Shown: in pieces, positions 21,836 to 30,462 of the stretch
How positions within the stretch are numbered: position 1 is the stretch's first letter
Layout: each line of letters begins with the position of its first letter
Source of the DNA: a virus
Length of the DNA stretch: 30,779 nucleotides
Direction: 5' to 3' (one strand)
IMG/VR virus record: IMGVR_UViG_3300009026_000039
Location: 1 to 30,779 of that record
The notes under the pieces: model-generated
Seen by the model: the letters and a program-made list of their open reading frames with translations, nothing else
Told to the model about the DNA's origin: nothing
Database searches by the model: none
Position numbers and translations under genes: made by a program

Positions 21836-22324
21836 ATGGGTGACTTATTAATGAAAATGCCATTACCATATGAACCAAAAAAGAAAAATCGTTGGTTGCT
21901 TACATTCCCTTCAGATTTAGGGATTCAACAATGGTGGTTATCATCAGCATCAAGACCTTCAATCACACAAAATGAAGTAGAAATACCTTTCCTTAACACA
22001 TCTACATGGGTTATTGGTCGTTTTACTTGGGAATCAATAGATGTAACTTTCCGTGACCCGATTGGTCCATCTGCTGCACAAGCAATTATGGAATGGGTAC
22101 GTTTACATTCTGAATCAATCACTGGTCGTCAAGGTTACGCGGCTGGATACAAGAGACCAGTTGAACTTGAGATGCTTGACCCAACGGGTGTTGTTATTGA
22201 GAAATGGTTATTGGATGGTACCATGTTAACGAACGTTGGATTCGGTGATTTATCGATGGATGATGATGGAATTGCTGAGATTACAACTACATTGCGTTTT
22301 GATAGAGCAATCTTACTATTTTGA
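21836..22324 (+). CDS. Tail tube protein (gp19-like)
   Basis: A 162-aa protein of normal gp19 length. It opens MPLPYEPKKKNRWLLTFPSD after a short MGDLLMK leader. It contains the tube hallmarks: RFTWESIDVTFRDPIGPSAA, a helix with MEWVRLHSES, then LEMLDPTGVVIEKWLLDGTM and FGDLSMDDDGIAEITTTLRF. This protein polymerises into the inner tube inside the sheath. The first ATG is at 21836; a second in-frame ATG seven codons later (21854) could be the true start. The gene ends with TGA and is followed by a strong hairpin terminator. HEG4 and HEG5 flank it on both sides, oriented outwards. Confidence 0.95.
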   Translation: MGDLLMKMPLPYEPKKKNRWLLTFPSDLGIQQWWLSSASRPSITQNEVEIPFLNTSTWVIGRFTWESIDVTFRDPIGPSAAQAIMEWVRLHSESITGRQGYAAGYKRPVELEMLDPTGVVIEKWLLDGTMLTNVGFGDLSMDDDGIAEITTTLRFDRAILLF

Positions 22325-22461: not shown

Positions 22462-24330
22462 ATGGATTATAAAAATTTCTTCACCACTGATAATAAATCT
22501 GGGTGGAAAACTAGAGAGTCGTTATTAAAAAAAAATGAACCAAAAATATATGATGAATTAAAAATTTTCATAGTTAAAAATAATTTAAACGAATTACCAT
22601 TTAAACAACAAGTTTGGCATTTTATTAATAATGACACTGAGATTAAAAAATGTTTAGGTTGTGGTGTTAATGTAGAATTTAGAGATACTCTACTTAAAGG
22701 TTATCGTAATTTTTGTTCTTTACCATGTGCAAATAGTAGTGGTTTATTAGAGAAAAGAGCATCAGAAGCAATTAAAATTAAGTATGGTGTTGATAGTTTT
22801 CCTCAACATGAGTCGTTTGTTGGGAAGGTAAAACAAACTAAATTAGATAAATATGGTGATGAGAATTATAATAATATCCCAAAAACATTAAAGACACAAG
22901 GAAATAAAATACATAATAACAAATATGACTATTCATTGGTTGACTATGTTAATTCCAAAACTAAAGTTAAAATCATTTGTCCAATACATGGTGTCTTTGA
23001 ACAAAGATTTAGTGACCATTTAAGAGGTCAAGGTTGTTCAAAGTGTGGTGATTTAAATTCTTCTAATTCTAGAAAAATGGGGTTGGATGAGTTTGTTAAA
23101 AGGTCTAATATTAAACATAATAACAAATATGACTATTCATTGGTTGAATATGTTAACTCAAAAACTAAAGTTAAAATCATTTGCCCAATACATGGTGTAC
23201 ATGAGCAAAGACCAGAATCTCATTTAATAAATGGTGGTTGTAAATTATGTGGTATTTTATCAAATTCAAAAAGTAGAACAAAATCAATTAGTGAATTTAT
23301 AGATAATGGTAATCAAATCCATAATAATAAATATAGTTATGAAAAAGTTAATTATATTAATGCTACAATTAAAGTAACAATTAATTGTCCCATACATGGT
23401 GATTTTGAACAAATCCCAGATAATCATTTAACAAAAAAATATGGTTGTAGTAAATGTAGTAATTTAGGCACATCTAGGCCAGAATCTAATTTAAAAGATT
23501 TTATTAATTCATTGGGTATTCAAATCGAAGAAAATAATAGGGTGATATTAAATGGGAAAGAATTAGATATCTATATTCCATCTAAAAATATAGCTATTGA
23601 ATATGATGGGTTGTATTGGCACGATGATAATCACGTAAATAATAATTATCACTTAAATAAAACAATTGAATGTGAGGATAATTCAATTCAACTTATACAT
23701 GTATTTGAAGATGAATGGAGAGATAAACAAGAGATAGTTAAGTCTAGATTGATGAATATCTTAGGGTTAACATCTAATAAAATATATGGTAGGAAAACAC
23801 AGATAAGAGAAGTAACACCAAAAGATTCTAAAACATTTTTAAATACCAATCATATTCAAGGCAACGTTAATTCTAAAATTAAATTAGGATTATATTACGA
23901 TGATGAATTGGTATCTTTGATGACGTTTGGTTTATTACGAAAATCATTGGGGTCTATATCTAAAGAAGGTTCATATGAATTACTTAGGTTCTGTAATAAA
24001 CTAGACACAACAGTTATTGGTGGTGCGGATAAGTTACTTAAATACTTTATAAATACATACACACCCATAGAAATAATCAGCTATGCAGATAGAAGATGGA
24101 GTCAAGGTAATCTATATAAAAAGTTGGGTTTTGATTTTGTTCATGATTCATCACCTAATTATTTCTATGTGATTAACAATAAACGCGAATATAGATTTAA
24201 ATACAGAAAAGATGTTCTAGTTAAAGAAGGGTTTGACCCGTCTAAATCAGAACGTCAAATAATGAAAGAAAGTGGTTTTAATAGAATCTATGATTGTGGT
24301 AATAAGAAATGGTTATTAAAAATTAAATAA
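22462..24330 (+). CDS. HEG5: hybrid-architecture VSR/EDxHD-like putative homing endonuclease
   Basis: A 622-aa paralogue that joins both N-terminal types. Residues 3-93 match the HEG4 start (YKNFFTTDNKSGWKTRESLL) and hold a Cys4 finger (C64, C67, C85, C89). Two KYG units follow (IKYGVDSFPQ, DKYGDENYNN). Three YDYSLV-type zinc-ribbon repeats come next (about 143-195, 210-265, 278-335); the third is degenerate (YSYEKVNY). The nuclease core KELDIYIPSKNIAIEYDG, LYWH gives candidate D369, E380, H387 and H397. The GNAT-like domain is complete. It is the only HEG here with both architectures, so it looks like a recombinant or the ancestral form. It lies downstream of the tube terminator with its own promoters. 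Confidence 0.8.
   Translation: MDYKNFFTTDNKSGWKTRESLLKKNEPKIYDELKIFIVKNNLNELPFKQQVWHFINNDTEIKKCLGCGVNVEFRDTLLKGYRNFCSLPCANSSGLLEKRASEAIKIKYGVDSFPQHESFVGKVKQTKLDKYGDENYNNIPKTLKTQGNKIHNNKYDYSLVDYVNSKTKVKIICPIHGVFEQRFSDHLRGQGCSKCGDLNSSNSRKMGLDEFVKRSNIKHNNKYDYSLVEYVNSKTKVKIICPIHGVHEQRPESHLINGGCKLCGILSNSKSRTKSISEFIDNGNQIHNNKYSYEKVNYINATIKVTINCPIHGDFEQIPDNHLTKKYGCSKCSNLGTSRPESNLKDFINSLGIQIEENNRVILNGKELDIYIPSKNIAIEYDGLYWHDDNHVNNNYHLNKTIECEDNSIQLIHVFEDEWRDKQEIVKSRLMNILGLTSNKIYGRKTQIREVTPKDSKTFLNTNHIQGNVNSKIKLGLYYDDELVSLMTFGLLRKSLGSISKEGSYELLRFCNKLDTTVIGGADKLLKYFINTYTPIEIISYADRRWSQGNLYKKLGFDFVHDSSPNYFYVINNKREYRFKYRKDVLVKEGFDPSKSERQIMKESGFNRIYDCGNKKWLLKIK
22912..23198 (+). repeat. Near-identical direct repeats inside HEG5
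   Basis: About 83 bases starting at 22912 (from CATAATAAC to CATGGTGT) recur 204 bases later at 23116-23198 with few differences, nearly all silent. The two encode HNNKYDYSLV(D/E)YVNSKT and the following strand to CPIHGV. The high DNA identity, unlike the third repeat, points to recent duplication or conversion of the zinc-ribbon unit. Confidence 0.75.
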
Positions 24331-24822: not shown

Positions 24823-26151
24823 ATGGACATTAAACCCAACGTTTTTCCTAGTCAACAACAAATGGAAGCGATTCAATCGGAAGAAGCTAAGAAAGCTGCT
24901 TTTGAAGCTGAGAAAGCACAAGCAACTAACGAAATCTATTCAAATGCTGCTTTACCATCAGATACACCAGAAGGTCATCAAAATGCGGTAGAAGCTATGA
25001 GAATGCGTACACAGAAACAACTTGAAGCTAAGAATACATCTGGTAAAGTACAACACCCAGAATTATCTGAAAGAGTTATTCAACGTGTTGAACAACCAAC
25101 TCAAGTTCAAGAAGACCCAAATGCTGAATTGTTAAGAAAAAGAGATGAACAATTAAGAATAAACCAAGAGAACATTTTAAGATATCAACAACAAGCTAAT
25201 CAAGCATCAGCTAGAGGAAATGATAATGTTGAAACTAACTCTGGGTTATATGAATTAAATAACGAAACAAATATGAATCAAAATCAACAAGGTACACCAA
25301 ATAATTTCAATAATAATTATGTACCACCAACACCTCCATCGGTTCCACCTACTAATAATTTTACTAGTTATGGTCAGAACCCATCTAATATAGACCCGTA
25401 TATCTATGAGATTAGTCAACCTAATTACAACGCTCCATTTGATGTGATTCCTTTACCTTCTCAAGGTAAAATGTATCCAAGTAAAAAACCAAATGTAAAA
25501 GTTGCGTATATGACTACAGCTGATGAGAATATTCTTACTAGTCCAAACTTATTGGCTAGTGGTGAGTTCTTGGAGATTCTTATCAATAGAAAACTTTTAG
25601 AACCTAGTATTAGATATAGAGATTTAACAGTTGGTGATAGAAATGCTATTATGCTTTGGTTAAGAGCAACTGGTTATGGTGAAATGTATCCAGTTACTAT
25701 TTATGACGAGAATAACAAACCATTTGAAACTGATATCAATCTACAAGAGTTAAACACAAAAAACTTAGGTGCTGAACCAGATTCTGAAGGGTTGTTTGAT
25801 TTTATTCTACCATTATCTAAAAATCAAATTAAATTTAAGTTTTTAACATGTGGTGATGTTGATGATATTGAAAGAATCATAGAAGAAGAAAGAGAGAAGA
25901 AATTACCAATCGATAACACAACAACGTATACTATTGAAAGAATCATTGTTGATGTAAATGGAACGAGAGATAAAAATTATATTAAAGATTTTGTATCAAC
26001 ACTTAGAATTGGTGATGGTAAAGCTTTGATGGATTATATTGCAAGTATTGAAAGTGGCATTGACCTAAATATCAATGTGACGACCCCAGGGGGAGGGTCG
26101 GTCGCTACCTTTCTTCCGCTTAACATGCGATTTTTTTGGCCTAACAGCTAA
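24823..26151 (+). CDS. gp26-like baseplate hub assembly / tail chaperone protein with long disordered N-terminus
   Basis: A 442-aa protein. Residues 1-200 are low-complexity and rich in Gln, Asn and Pro, with coiled-coil-like segments (EEAKKAAFEAEKAQA). Residues 205-440 match the T4 baseplate gp26 family: VIPLPSQGKMYPSKKPNVKV, MTTADENILTSPNLL, YRDLTVGDRNAIMLWLRATG and the final TFLPLNMRFFWPNS. T4 gp26 is about half this length, so the N-terminal half is an addition. In T4 gp26 works with gp51 to assemble the hub; here the next frame encodes a gp51-like partner without a good start codon. The last 25 codons use GC-rich codons (GGG, TCG, CCG, GTC) unlike the rest of the gene. See the recoding entry. 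Confidence 0.75.
   Translation: MDIKPNVFPSQQQMEAIQSEEAKKAAFEAEKAQATNEIYSNAALPSDTPEGHQNAVEAMRMRTQKQLEAKNTSGKVQHPELSERVIQRVEQPTQVQEDPNAELLRKRDEQLRINQENILRYQQQANQASARGNDNVETNSGLYELNNETNMNQNQQGTPNNFNNNYVPPTPPSVPPTNNFTSYGQNPSNIDPYIYEISQPNYNAPFDVIPLPSQGKMYPSKKPNVKVAYMTTADENILTSPNLLASGEFLEILINRKLLEPSIRYRDLTVGDRNAIMLWLRATGYGEMYPVTIYDENNKPFETDINLQELNTKNLGAEPDSEGLFDFILPLSKNQIKFKFLTCGDVDDIERIIEEEREKKLPIDNTTTYTIERIIVDVNGTRDKNYIKDFVSTLRIGDGKALMDYIASIESGIDLNINVTTPGGGSVATFLPLNMRFFWPNS
26079..26140 (+). promoter_or_regulatory. Candidate recoding (frameshift) element at the gp26-like/gp51-like junction
   Basis: In a strongly AT-rich window this block is GC-rich. CGACCC (26081-26086) can pair with GGGTCG (26095-26100) around a purine loop containing five G in a row. 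A pyrimidine tract (ACCTTTCTTCC, 26107-26117) could pair with those purines through many G-U pairs. It ends with seven T (26131-26137) read as TTT TTT TGG in the upstream frame. A +1 (or -2) shift on that run joins the upstream frame to the downstream one, which is open from 26081 onwards. Tail assembly chaperone pairs upstream of tape-measure genes use such shifts in many phages. No experiment supports this one. Confidence 0.5.
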
Positions 26152-26167
26152 CTATAAGATACCTTTA

Positions 26168-26416
26168 TTGGAAGAGGTTTGGATTTGTACTCAACATATG
26201 AAAAACATGACGTATTCAGATGTTATGGCAATGCCAACCTATGAAAGAAGATATTACTTAGGTATGCTAACCAAGGATTTCGAAAGAAGACAAGAGCAAA
26301 TAGAAGAACAGAAAGAACAACAAACCACTAGTGGTGGTAAAGGGTCTAGAACGTCAAAAGTATCTGGACAGCAATTGAAAAATAGCATTAATAATGGAAA
26401 TATACCATTACAATAA
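26168..26416 (+). CDS. gp51-like / tail-chaperone C-terminal partner, probably reached by frameshift
   Basis: The 82 residues from a TTG at 26168 read (M)EEVWICTQHMKNMTYSDV, then MAMPTYERRYYLGMLTKDF, and a charged Gln/Ser-rich tail. The pattern of EEVW, a SYxDVMxMP segment and ERRYYL resembles small T4-type hub assembly proteins and the T parts of tail chaperones. The frame is open upstream to 26081 and reads GLTANYKIPLLEEVW across the junction, better than the TTG start would give. There is no ATG before 26198 and no ribosome site. I infer it is made as an extension of the gp26-like protein; independent initiation at TTG is the alternative. A terminator follows. Confidence 0.6.
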   Translation: MEEVWICTQHMKNMTYSDVMAMPTYERRYYLGMLTKDFERRQEQIEEQKEQQTTSGGKGSRTSKVSGQQLKNSINNGNIPLQ

Positions 26417-26418
26417 TA

Positions 26419-26450
26419 AAATCCCCAATAGTTGGGGATTTTTGTTTTAA
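26419..26450 (+). terminator. Strong terminator after the gp51-like frame
   Basis: AAATCCCCAA (26419-26428) pairs with TTGGGGATTT (26432-26441) around TAG, followed by T-rich sequence. Ten pairs, four of them G-C. Confidence 0.9.
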
Positions 26451-26474: not shown

Positions 26475-27953
26475 ATGAAAGTCAGATTAACAGAAGCCCA
26501 ATATAAAGCATTAGAGAAGTTTATTGAGGAAGCTAGAGCTGCTGAAGCACCAGTTTCATTAAAAAACCTATTCAATGATAACCCAGAAGCTAAATACTTT
26601 ACTGTTGTTCAAAGACTTAAAGGTGGTAGTGATGATGAGTATCATTTTCAATTTGTTGACCAAGATGGTCATAAAGGTATCAAAGATGTTAATAAAATAG
26701 GTAAAACCAAAGGTTGTGAGATTGATTTAAAACCAGATACAATGATTTATGGTAATACATTCTCAGTGTCTTTTGGTAGTTGTGGTACTAGAACAATAAA
26801 CAATGTTATTGCTGTTAAGCTTTATGCTGATGAAAACTCTCTTAAGAGTGGTCATGAGATTGATAGTATGGAAATTGAGCATGAATTGGATGAGACACCA
26901 GAAGGATTGGCTAATAAGTATTATGAGATGTTAAAGAATATAAATATAGACCAAGAAATTTATATTGATAGTAAAAACAAATGGGATGGTGTTGTAATAG
27001 CTAAAAGAAATGATAGTATTGAGATAAAGATATATAAACATGGTATTCCTATAAATGAAGCGGATGATGATTCTGATATGGAATGGAATACACAACCTAA
27101 GACACAAGAACCACAACAGCAAAAGGCTAAACCAACTAGAAAAGATATTATATTAACTTTAGATATGACAACAAACCCTTTCTATGTTGAAAATGGTAAA
27201 TTAATGTTAAAAGGTATGTCATACGATAATACAATAGAAAAGAAATCAGAATTTATTGTTCCAATTAAAAAATTCACAACAAATGCTGGTGATTCAAAAA
27301 TACCAAAATCAGAAAAATCAGATACAAAGCCAGAGACACAACCAGAGGTTGATAACCCAGAAGATGTTGAGTCTGAAGAAGAATTAAGGAAACAAGCAAT
27401 AGAAGCTTATAAAATGATTTTAGGTGATAAAACTTTACAAAAAGTTTTTTATAAACACCCAACAACATTAGAGTATCTTGTTGCCGCTATTAAAAATAAA
27501 AAAGCACTAGGTAAAAACATAGTACCAACATTACAGTTATTAAACAGTTATGGTTCTGAAAATTTAAACAAAGAATTAGGTGCCGAATTTATACAAGGAA
27601 AATCAGTTAATTTTGAACCGTATAATACACCATATTCAATTGAGGTTGATGGTGGTAAATTCCAATTAAATACTGGAGTTCCAAGACGTGGAGTTGTTAG
27701 AAAATTTAAATTTGAAAAGAAACATTATATCATTGATAGTAAAGAAACTAATGGTAGTGGTGTTAAAATAATAGTTAAGTCAGCCACTGAAGCTGAGAAT
27801 GTATTTAAATGTGAATTGATTAGATATGTTAGAGATAATCAAAACCAAATAAAAGAATATAAATATAATGGTGATGCTTATTTTAAATTTGACGCAAGCA
27901 GTGGTGATGGTTATAAACCAATACCTAAAAATGAACGAAAACCAGTAGAATAA
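26475..27953 (+). CDS. Unknown 492-aa virion-region protein
   Basis: It opens MKVRLTEAQYKALEKFIEEA, sharing its pattern with the 134-aa protein at 19505. Residues 30-205 are a mixed alpha/beta region (FTVVQRLKGGSDDEYHFQF, YGNTFSVSFGSCGTRTINN). A Pro/Gln/Lys-rich linker with QPKTQEPQQQKAKPTRK follows, then a second strand-rich part. An acidic linker is found near 285-305, then a helical segment and a C-terminal beta domain. No enzyme motif is seen. It sits between the gp26/gp51-like genes and the tape measure, the position of hub proteins (gp27/gp28 area in T4), so a hub or tail-tip component is possible. Its stop is 19 bases before the tape-measure gene. Confidence 0.5.
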   Translation: MKVRLTEAQYKALEKFIEEARAAEAPVSLKNLFNDNPEAKYFTVVQRLKGGSDDEYHFQFVDQDGHKGIKDVNKIGKTKGCEIDLKPDTMIYGNTFSVSFGSCGTRTINNVIAVKLYADENSLKSGHEIDSMEIEHELDETPEGLANKYYEMLKNINIDQEIYIDSKNKWDGVVIAKRNDSIEIKIYKHGIPINEADDDSDMEWNTQPKTQEPQQQKAKPTRKDIILTLDMTTNPFYVENGKLMLKGMSYDNTIEKKSEFIVPIKKFTTNAGDSKIPKSEKSDTKPETQPEVDNPEDVESEEELRKQAIEAYKMILGDKTLQKVFYKHPTTLEYLVAAIKNKKALGKNIVPTLQLLNSYGSENLNKELGAEFIQGKSVNFEPYNTPYSIEVDGGKFQLNTGVPRRGVVRKFKFEKKHYIIDSKETNGSGVKIIVKSATEAENVFKCELIRYVRDNQNQIKEYKYNGDAYFKFDASSGDGYKPIPKNERKPVE

Positions 27954-27972: not shown

Positions 27973-30462
27973 ATGGCAAATTTAACAAGAGCTCAAATAG
28001 CTGATATTAATAGATTATTAAAAGAACAAGCTCAACTACAACAAGAAATTAATAGTGGTTTAGATGGCTATTTAAATGCTTTGAAACAAGTTAAGGCTAT
28101 TGATGAATCAAAAAAGGCTATTGATGAAAAGATAGTTGCTTTACAAGACCAATTAACTCAAGGTACTCAAGATGAAAAGAATATTGCTGCTGCTAAGTTA
28201 AAAATACTTAAGGATGAACTTGAATACCTCACGAAAAGAGGTGATATGATTAAAGAGCAGCTTAAGGATGCTAACAAAATGAAGATGACATTTGCTGCAA
28301 TTGCAGCAAGTACTCTTAAAGGTTTTAATAACTTACCTAATTTAATTCAAAACTCTTTTGGTAAACTTAAATCTTTTGGTTTATTTGAAATGGATAAGGC
28401 GATTAGAATGTCTGCCACTGAAATGGGTAAGTTTGGTAAAAACGCTGACGCATTAAGGACTTCAATAGAAAATACTGCTGCAACAACTAATAGTTGGGGT
28501 ATGGGTGTTAAAGAGTTATCAAAGCTACAATCATCATTTAGTGAAGAGTTAGGTAGAACAGCCATGATGGGTAACGAAGGATTGGAGGCTGTATCCGCTT
28601 TGGCTGCTGCAACTAGTTTAGGTGTTGAAGGTGCTGGTAAGTTAACAGCTGAAATGGACAATCAAGGGTTGTCAGCTAAGCGTACAGCTGATTTCATGGA
28701 GCAAACTATGAATGATAGTGCTAAGATGGGTATAAACGCTTCTAAGGTCGTTAAAAACATCCAGAACAATATGAAGATGCTTAATAAGTATAACTTCAAA
28801 GGTGGCGTTAAAGGATTGGCTAAAATGGCTCAAACCACATCTAAGTTGGGTGTTGATATGAACTTTGTATCTGGAATGGCTGATAAACTATTTGATATTG
28901 AAGGTGCTGTTGATATGTCAGCACAATTACAAGTTATGGGTGGTGCATGGTCTGAATTGGCTGACCCATTCAAATTAATGTATATGGCACGTAATGACAT
29001 GGAAGGGTTGACTGAAGCTATAGGTCAAGCTGCTGCTTCTTCTGCTCACTTCAATAAAGAAACTGGTGAGTTTGAGATATCGAGTCTTGAGATGCATAGA
29101 TTACGTAAGATTGCTGAACAAACTGGTGTATCTTATGAAGAATTAGCAACAGCTGGTAAAAACGCAGCTAAATTTAGTAGAATCAAAACTCAAATGAGTT
29201 TTAGTGTTGGTGGTGGTGCAGAAGGTAAGAAAATGCAAGAATTCCTTGAGAATACCGCTCAGTTAGATGAAAGTGGTAAAGCTTTCATTATTGATATGAA
29301 AGGTGATAAGAAATATCTAAATGCATTGGGTAGTAGTGGTAAAAAACTAATTGAAGCTGAAATGGCTAACCAAGCTACACTAAAAGAAAGAGCTGAAGCT
29401 GCACAATCATTTGATGAGAAGATAACCAATTTAATAAATATGGTTAAAACATACATGATGCCAATTGTTGAAGGTATTGATGATGTTTTAAGGCCAGTTA
29501 TTGATGATTTATTTAAAGAAGGTAGTACATTTAGGAAAGATTTAAAAGATTTAGGTACTGAATTAGGCGGTTTTGTTAAGGGTGCTTTAGAAATGCTTAA
29601 ACCTTTAGGTCAAATGGCTTTAGCTTTAGGACCAAAGGGGTTATTTGCAGCATTTGTTGGGGGTAAATTACTTAGTGGGATAGTTAGTCTTGCTACTTGG
29701 TTTGCAAATGGTGCGTCTTTAGCTAAAGGGTTTCTTATGGGTACTAAAGGTATGGGTGATACTGAAGGTAATAGTGGTCAATATGGTAAAAAAGATGGTA
29801 AGATAGGTCCAGCTTTACCAGGTAAAAGTGGGTTTGGTATGAAAGCTGTTGGTGCTGGTGGTGGTTTACTTACTGGTGGTATTGATGCTATGTCCGCAGA
29901 TTCTATGGGTGAAGGTATTGGAAATGTGGCTGGTGGGGTTATTGGTGGTATATTAGGTACTTTTTTAGACCCATTTATAGGTCCTTTAGGTACTATGTTA
30001 GGTGCTCAATTAGGTAGTATGGCTGGTGGTGCTATTGGTGGTTATTTTTCTGATGAACAACATGATGCATTGTTTAATTCACCAATTCACGATGGTGTGT
30101 CTCACGGTAAATCATTAGGTTCTGATTTTTCCAAAAAAAGAGGAATAGTGCAAGGTGGTAAAATAACACCGATTGATAATAAAGATGATTTATTAGCTAT
30201 GAAACCAGGTGGTGGAATAATGGATGGTCTTCTTTCTTTATTACCAGGTTTTGGTGGTTCTGGAAAAAAACAACAGTCTATGCATGTTACATTTGGCGAT
30301 ATTAATTTTAAATTTGAAGACCTAATAGTCAAATCAAGTGGTGGCGATACTAAAACTATAGGTAAAGACTTATTAAATACACCTGGGTTTACTAGGGATA
30401 TTACTAGAATGATTCACCTTGAAACTCAAAAAGCTATCCATGGTGGTTGGTCAAGGGGTTAA
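27973..30462 (+). CDS. Tail tape-measure protein
   Basis: An 829-aa protein. Residues 1-105 are coiled coil (LLKEQAQLQQEINSGLDGYL, then LKDELEYLTKRGDMIKEQL). Residues 110-520 are Ala/Lys/Met-rich helices with repeated MGxxG turns, typical of tape measures. A hydrophobic stretch (about 540-575, LFAAFVGGKLLSGIVSLATW) and a second Gly-rich one (about 650-690, GNVAGGVIGGILGTFLDPF) could cross the host membrane during DNA entry. The C-terminal 90 residues form a small charged domain with HVTFGDINFKFEDLIV. T4 gp29 is 590 aa; since this protein sets tail length, a longer tail is expected. Position after the chaperone pair supports the call. No lysozyme or peptidase motif is recognised. Confidence 0.82.
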   Translation: MANLTRAQIADINRLLKEQAQLQQEINSGLDGYLNALKQVKAIDESKKAIDEKIVALQDQLTQGTQDEKNIAAAKLKILKDELEYLTKRGDMIKEQLKDANKMKMTFAAIAASTLKGFNNLPNLIQNSFGKLKSFGLFEMDKAIRMSATEMGKFGKNADALRTSIENTAATTNSWGMGVKELSKLQSSFSEELGRTAMMGNEGLEAVSALAAATSLGVEGAGKLTAEMDNQGLSAKRTADFMEQTMNDSAKMGINASKVVKNIQNNMKMLNKYNFKGGVKGLAKMAQTTSKLGVDMNFVSGMADKLFDIEGAVDMSAQLQVMGGAWSELADPFKLMYMARNDMEGLTEAIGQAAASSAHFNKETGEFEISSLEMHRLRKIAEQTGVSYEELATAGKNAAKFSRIKTQMSFSVGGGAEGKKMQEFLENTAQLDESGKAFIIDMKGDKKYLNALGSSGKKLIEAEMANQATLKERAEAAQSFDEKITNLINMVKTYMMPIVEGIDDVLRPVIDDLFKEGSTFRKDLKDLGTELGGFVKGALEMLKPLGQMALALGPKGLFAAFVGGKLLSGIVSLATWFANGASLAKGFLMGTKGMGDTEGNSGQYGKKDGKIGPALPGKSGFGMKAVGAGGGLLTGGIDAMSADSMGEGIGNVAGGVIGGILGTFLDPFIGPLGTMLGAQLGSMAGGAIGGYFSDEQHDALFNSPIHDGVSHGKSLGSDFSKKRGIVQGGKITPIDNKDDLLAMKPGGGIMDGLLSLLPGFGGSGKKQQSMHVTFGDINFKFEDLIVKSSGGDTKTIGKDLLNTPGFTRDITRMIHLETQKAIHGGWSRG

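Follow-up and report, generated by a model that had tools for sequence, protein, structure and literature searches.

In phage lambda, as in HK97, P2, Mu and HSTV-2, genes situated between those of the tail tube and the tape measure yield a short product, gpG, and a frameshift extension of it, gpGT. The direction of the shift in tail chaperones varies among phages (-1, -2 and +1), and a 2016 review named the T4-type contractile tails as an exception to the frameshifted scheme (PMC5009743). PMC3004832 lists T4 gp26 and gp51 among the chaperones of hub assembly and describes gp51 as an essential protein of unknown function that is missing from the particle. The cyanophage gene order is gp26, a short gp51 and a large tape-measure-like open reading frame. 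According to Sullivan et al. (PMC3037559), cyanophage gp51 reaches only some 20% of its usual length and matches the C-terminus alone. The KVP40 record likewise has a short gp51 that matches only the C-terminus. Two systems outside phage tails are also relevant: the influenza A PA-X site UUU_CGU, a +1 site whose authors predicted a class in which UUU_C is combined with an A-site CGN (PMC3498833), and the release factor 2 gene prfB, with its +1 site CUU_UGA.

How does the present locus compare? It lies in a 30.8-kb IMG/VR virus contig, the whole of which (30,779 nucleotides) is termed the window here. By position and design, i.e. by analogy, it is the lambda G/GT tail-assembly chaperone system within the T4 superfamily; neither the chaperone role nor the frameshift has been tested experimentally. 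The proteins differ from those of lambda, as they belong to PF12322 and show no significant sequence or structural match to the lambda-type family; the tails are of the T4 contractile type, and the site is a +1 site, UUU_Y, accompanied by upstream signals. The reading put forward, with a probability of roughly 0.83, is that of a conserved programmed +1 ribosomal frameshift by which one gene makes two tail-assembly chaperones. The shifting and the chaperone role are both inferred, without protein or reporter data. No description of a gp26-gp51 frameshift was found in the open literature, but subscription papers and preprints were not covered and a prior description is possible.

The two-frame gene and its surroundings

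The features of the locus are collected in Table 1. The frame-0 product consists of a Q/N-rich N-terminal extension followed by a PF12322 'T4_baseplate' domain, with a match of 26.3 bits that passes the curated cut-off of 24.5; PF12322 is matched at E<0.01 by 66 of 69 relatives. An AF2 model of the C-terminal 253 amino acids has a pLDDT of 90, and its structural neighbours are gp26-type baseplate hub proteins. The N-terminal extension (24823-25389) is long, and is missing from T4 gp26 and from most distant relatives. The reading frame ends with CTT-AAC-ATG-CGA-TTT-TTT-TGG-CCT-AAC-AGC-TAA.

Table 1. Coordinates of features in and around the proposed frameshift gene of the window
Feature	Position	Strand	Basis
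Tail tube protein, gp19-like, same module	21836..22324	+	phrog_4542 tail tube, E 2.8e-26
gp26-like frame-0 ORF, 442 aa, 'G'-like short product	24823..26151	+	PF12322, E 7e-6; phrog_150 baseplate hub, E 2e-8
PF12322 domain in the frame-0 ORF, residues 219-425	25477..26097	+	Pfam match
Conserved RNA hairpin, arms 26081-26086/26095-26100, loop CAGGGGGA (relatives CTGGAGGT)	26081..26100	+	Covariation
Nucleotide-constrained block TTT CTT CCN CTT AAC NNC NNN TTT TTT TGG CCT	26110..26142	+	Synonymous conservation
Putative shift site TTT_TTT_TGG	26131..26139	+	136 distinct homologous sites
+1-frame 'T' domain, 92 aa, GLTANYKIPLLEEVW...	26138..26416	+	Homologous to short cyanophage gp51 and T4 gp51 C-terminus
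Frame-0 stop TAA, four codons past TGG	26149..26151	+	Sequence and relatives
Intrinsic-terminator-like hairpin AATCCCCAA/TTGGGGATT, then T-rich stretch	26420..26448	+	By eye from sequence, no tool scan
492-aa ORF, function unknown, between frameshift pair and tape measure	26475..27953	+	PF19070 DUF5766, below cut-off
Probable tape measure protein, 829 aa, glycine-zipper region	27973..30462	+	Position and composition; no above-cut-off family match

A first-pass annotation of the window had described the downstream frame (26168-26416) as open from 26081, offset by +1 or -2 and devoid of ATG. The extent and offset are as described. In-frame ATGs do exist, the first at 26198, together with a TTG at 26168, and what stands is that no start lies 5' of the conserved GLTANYKIPLLEEVW. 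The encoded domain is conserved, is about 90 residues long and is all-helical in an AF2 model (pLDDT 84). Because a tblastn search of the phage collection with the window's T-domain sequence gave no match, profiles were used. Against T4-type gp51 the T-domain profile gives a match over the C-terminal ~40 residues with E 7e-5 and a score of 32.2 (mean 11.4 and maximum 20.8 in 100 column shuffles), and against short cyanophage gp51 one with an hhalign E of 1.1e-8 and a score of 43 (shuffled maximum 13.8); the same profile shows no match to gp26 (scores 10.8 and 10.5). Seven of 59 T-domain members hit phrog_634, 'baseplate hub assembly catalyst', the best at 3.5e-7. A weak similarity to PF20546 (DUF6760) is present in 25 of the 59 (A7 set; best E 4e-5). 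The comparison supports the earlier idea of a gp26-gp51 pair joined by a frameshift, the upstream part being PF12322/phrog_150 and the downstream part resembling gp51.

The pair is flanked by the tail tube and probable tape measure genes. It was previously placed upstream of the tape measure, which is correct, but not immediately so, as the 492-aa reading frame intervenes. This extra frame before the tape measure is absent from immuto, LIS04 and SP-15, where nothing is annotated at its place. Also of note in the window are two large HNH homing-endonuclease-like frames at 478-2130 and 22462-24330 (phrog_559, E<1e-130), both containing a region that matches Mom-like DNA modification proteins; the second separates the tail tube gene from the gp26-like gene.

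How would two products arise and what might they do? Most ribosomes would stop at 26151 and produce the short, G-like protein. A minority, with tRNA-Phe on the P-site UUU and a UGG (Trp) codon, presumably slow, waiting in the A site, would slip one base forward, from UUU 26134-26136 to UUU 26135-26137, and would then read GGC CUA ACA to give a fusion protein carrying the gp51-like T domain, with a predicted junction peptide of ...MRFFGLTANYK. That ribosomes shift at this site, and how often, is inferred. If lambda gpG/gpGT is a guide, the tape measure would be coated by the short form and connected by the fusion to the assembly of the tail tube or hub, and virions would contain neither protein. 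The position between tube and tape measure genes, the short and long products and the small helical add-on fit the G/GT pattern, the chaperone function itself being an inference from this likeness. Known G proteins show no sequence match to the PF12322 protein, and the AF2 model of PF12322 matches the HK97 chaperone 2ob9 only weakly (probability 0.41, TM 0.51 of the target, E 2.1); thus membership in the G-protein family is not claimed, only a similar way of working.

Conservation of the site and direction of the putative shift

Searching viral contigs with the C-terminal domain of gp26 as query yielded 79 relatives. In all 73 readable close relatives the T run plus GGCCT, an early frame-0 stop and an open +1 frame of similar length and sequence are present. 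A second scan with a diverse alignment added 80 loci, mostly distant, and the wider set comprises 159 loci with 136 distinct downstream domains, isolate and bacterial-genome records included. On sequence evidence alone, the dual frame is far beyond chance. Two conserved overlapping frames, joined in homologs at a conserved slippery site, are what is required of a programmed +1 frameshift, and the locus passes in this respect.

The T run and the synonymous sites had been singled out in the first-pass annotation as places where alignment should be informative; the run is kept and the synonymous sites are constrained. Across 57 non-redundant members of the window's clade, aligned by codon, 6-codon windows over the last 11 codons show synonymous conservation of +0.23 to +0.33, compared with a mean of 0.008 (sd 0.065) for the gene as a whole; the constraint is confined to these last 11 gp26-like codons. 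Constraint on GGCCT can be attributed to coding in two frames; the rest of the block, which lies 5' of the shift, is not so explained. The codon at 26125-26127, two before TTT TTT, is ATG in the window, and in relatives it is nearly always NTC although the residue varies.

The 136 distinct domains have UUU_UUU_UGG (93), UUU_UUU_CGN (36), UUU_CUU_UGG (2) and UUC_UUU_CGN (2), the rest being singletons. The CUU and UUC variants fit a +1 slip of the P-site tRNA from UUU or CUU onto an overlapping UUY, and re-pairing one base downstream, on UUU_Y or CUU_U, is possible at every site except that of phage LIS04, the only one in which the base after the P-site codon is not a pyrimidine. In this Listeria phage (L083, 4700-4760) the dual-frame layout is kept with a site UUU_AGU, not open to simple re-pairing. 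LR756508 (L084) also keeps the layout and needs UUU_CUA, not a simple UUU_Y.

The A-site codon is UGG or CGN across the set. Arginine in the A site is CGN in 37 of 37 domains of the CGN clade, whereas CGN makes up only 9% of Arg codons elsewhere; that the A-site codon is slow is inferred from codon rarity. A T before UUU_UUU, which would create a -1 heptamer, occurs once against 46.2 expected from codon use, a deficit that may be read as selection for +1 and against -1. The earlier annotation left the choice between +1 and -2 open. Comparison of homologous sites favours the former, and it shows +1 to be the general direction of the putative shift.

CUU_U is the form of the prfB site, and it is found in two members here; the A-site codon is a sense codon, unlike that of prfB, and the system is not autoregulatory. 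The likeness to PA-X is closest in the CGN clade, where 37 domains have the same tetranucleotide, UUU in the P site, CGN in the A site and tRNA-Phe re-pairing. The differences from PA-X are that bacterial ribosomes are involved, that the E-site codon is UUU instead of UCC, and that the window's clade has UGG in the A site (UUU_UGG). The set adds many natural, putative +1 sites of the UUU_Y type from bacterial viruses, including the UUU_CGN form predicted from PA-X.

Could the frames be joined in another way? With a -2 shift, the kind reported for phage Mu gpGT, tRNA-Phe would step two bases backwards along the T run, and the junction would read FFFGLT (...MRFFFGLTANYK) and not FFGLT. The seven T of the window permit either direction, and the first TTT is indeed TTT in 131 of 132 domains of three clades, where the usual TTT use is 76-86%. 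UUC_UUU_CGG in L128, UUC_UUU_CGU in SagM-GXN1 and UUU_CUU_UGG in L119 and immuto, however, bar re-pairing by -2 and permit it by +1, and these CUU and UUC variants exclude -2 as a general mechanism; for the window itself it is improbable.

Less probable still is a separate second gene, translated from the TTG at 26168 or from a non-canonical start and coupled to the upstream stop. Such a TTG is available, LR756511 has an ATG of its own for the T domain, and P-SSM2-like phages have an ATG three codons past the shift. Yet conservation of the +1 frame begins at the T run, 5' of the TTG, in all relatives, the TTG lacks an SD sequence, and separate initiation gives no reason for the constraint on the last 11 codons or for avoidance of the -1 heptamer.

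RNA polymerase slippage on the seven T, with mRNAs losing one base or gaining two, has the homopolymer run of the window in its favour, but the dual frame is kept at sites with no more than three consecutive T (TTT CTT TGG; TTC TTT CGN). Transcriptional slippage is excluded by these variants as a general mechanism, and little room is left for it in the window. Homopolymer runs are error-prone, but a read or assembly error, the way out that the first-pass annotation had allowed for, or a decayed gene can hardly be entertained when the site recurs in 159 loci, with complete genomes of several isolates among them, and the number of independent contigs rules out an error in the T run.

Signals around the proposed shift site

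For the +1 ribosomal shift, what might promote it? The window has 55% GC at 26060-26139 and about 20-35% in the surroundings, so that the GC-rich block reported earlier is real, and the hairpin and the seven T (26131-26137) are found where they had been placed. The hairpin lies about 33 nt 5' of the P-site codon. In the window's clade there are 17 double-change cells, and none of 500 shuffles reaches the observed covariation score or percent paired; some 10 sequences that are unpaired in this register pair one base over, as GGAACC/GGTTCC. Relative to synonymous shuffles the mean z for stability is -1.9 over 48 relatives. The window's own hairpin is unremarkable against dinucleotide shuffles (z -0.39), and its support is comparative; RNAalifold on the full alignment gave merely a 3-bp alternative.

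In the window's clade the shift is probably tuned by two elements, the upstream hairpin and a UUUCUUCCNCUUAAC spacer that does not vary; the action of the hairpin is an inference. A structure that acts 5' of a +1 site would be unusual, and this counts against the explanation offered here. CUUCC at 26113-26117 is a candidate pseudoknot partner of the loop GGAGG; it is nearly invariant, hence no covariation signal is possible. Pairing of a stem UUUCUUCC with downstream GAAGAA (LEE codons) was rejected, as the downstream codons vary (GAG GAG, CAA GAG) without compensation.

Roughly half of the CGN clade has an SD-like GGGGTGGAG immediately 5' of TTTTTT (mean anti-SD energy -7, z -1.4); the spacing is that of prfB, with the SD-like sequence three bases 5' of the P codon. 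A prfB-type stimulation is plausible for this clade only; in the window's clade the SD-like loop is about 40 nt away, which is too long a distance.

The gp26-gp51 pair in T4 and other relatives

T4 was said to have gp26 and gp51 as separate proteins. There are two genes, divergently transcribed and with no frameshift, but gp51 is a PF12322 paralog of gp26, and only its C-terminus is gp51-specific; this extra domain, the counterpart of the +1-frame domain of the window, is in frame within gp51 and absent from gp26. What escaped the first-pass annotation is a putative -1 site that joins the same pair in other T4 relatives. The gp26 gene ends with xxT TTT TTC shortly before the stop in Syn9, S-RIM2, P-SSM2, S-CRM01, AS-zj, Yut3 and KVP40, and the -1 frame continues into gp51; in phiM12 the site is T TTT TTT. 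Cyanophages thus share homologous domains and gene order with the window and differ in having the second frame at -1, with U_UUU_UUC at the gp26 end, and in being annotated with two separate genes. Among 65 distinct junctions from cyanophage-like contigs and isolates, many of them from close relatives, U_UUU_UUC is present in 64. All 65 have a preceding T, for which 45.5 would be expected, and 64 use TTC as their second Phe codon, a codon with a share of 19% elsewhere. As a search query, KVP40 gp26 matched almost only itself.

The ATG past the shift is found in most P-SSM2-like junctions, and Syn9 has none nearby. One cannot exclude coupled initiation in the P-SSM2-like phages. Some -1 relatives carry an ATG a few codons past the stop, which, with the separate ATG of LR756511, implies coupled initiation in certain lineages and speaks against the frameshift reading there. 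The data indicate that T4's relatives use a frameshifted two-product scheme, in two directions, as far as comparison of the genes can tell, and suggest that T4 has replaced the frameshift by two paralogs.

Was the scheme present in a common ancestor? A joint reading, which is tentative and has perhaps one chance in three, would be that the making of a short and a long chaperone from one PF12322 gene goes back to the ancestor of the entire T4 superfamily. The longer product would come from a +1 shift, a -1 shift, a separate start or, in T4, duplication and in-frame fusion, so that T4 gp26/gp51 would correspond to G/GT. The shift in the window's clade would then be driven by the upstream hairpin, perhaps as a pseudoknot of loop GGAGG with CUUCC; by folding again behind the ribosome, at its trailing edge, this structure would give it a forward push.

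The gp26/gp51 annotation in many phage genomes, cyanophages included, overlooks the predicted fusion protein. In the current records of Microcystis phage Mel-JY01 (L082, 4740-4976) and Flavobacterium phage immuto (L081, 4833-4943) the T domain is entered as a short hypothetical protein of its own, given an arbitrary start, and the predicted fusion is thereby missed. Other arrangements are found further afield. The extra domain is in the +1 frame in RM378; in Rhizobium phage LG08 (L175) and the PA5oct-like Pseudomonas phage Paride (L176) it comes after a PF12322 gene and lies in the -1 frame, the site being T_TTT_TTC, as in cyanophages.
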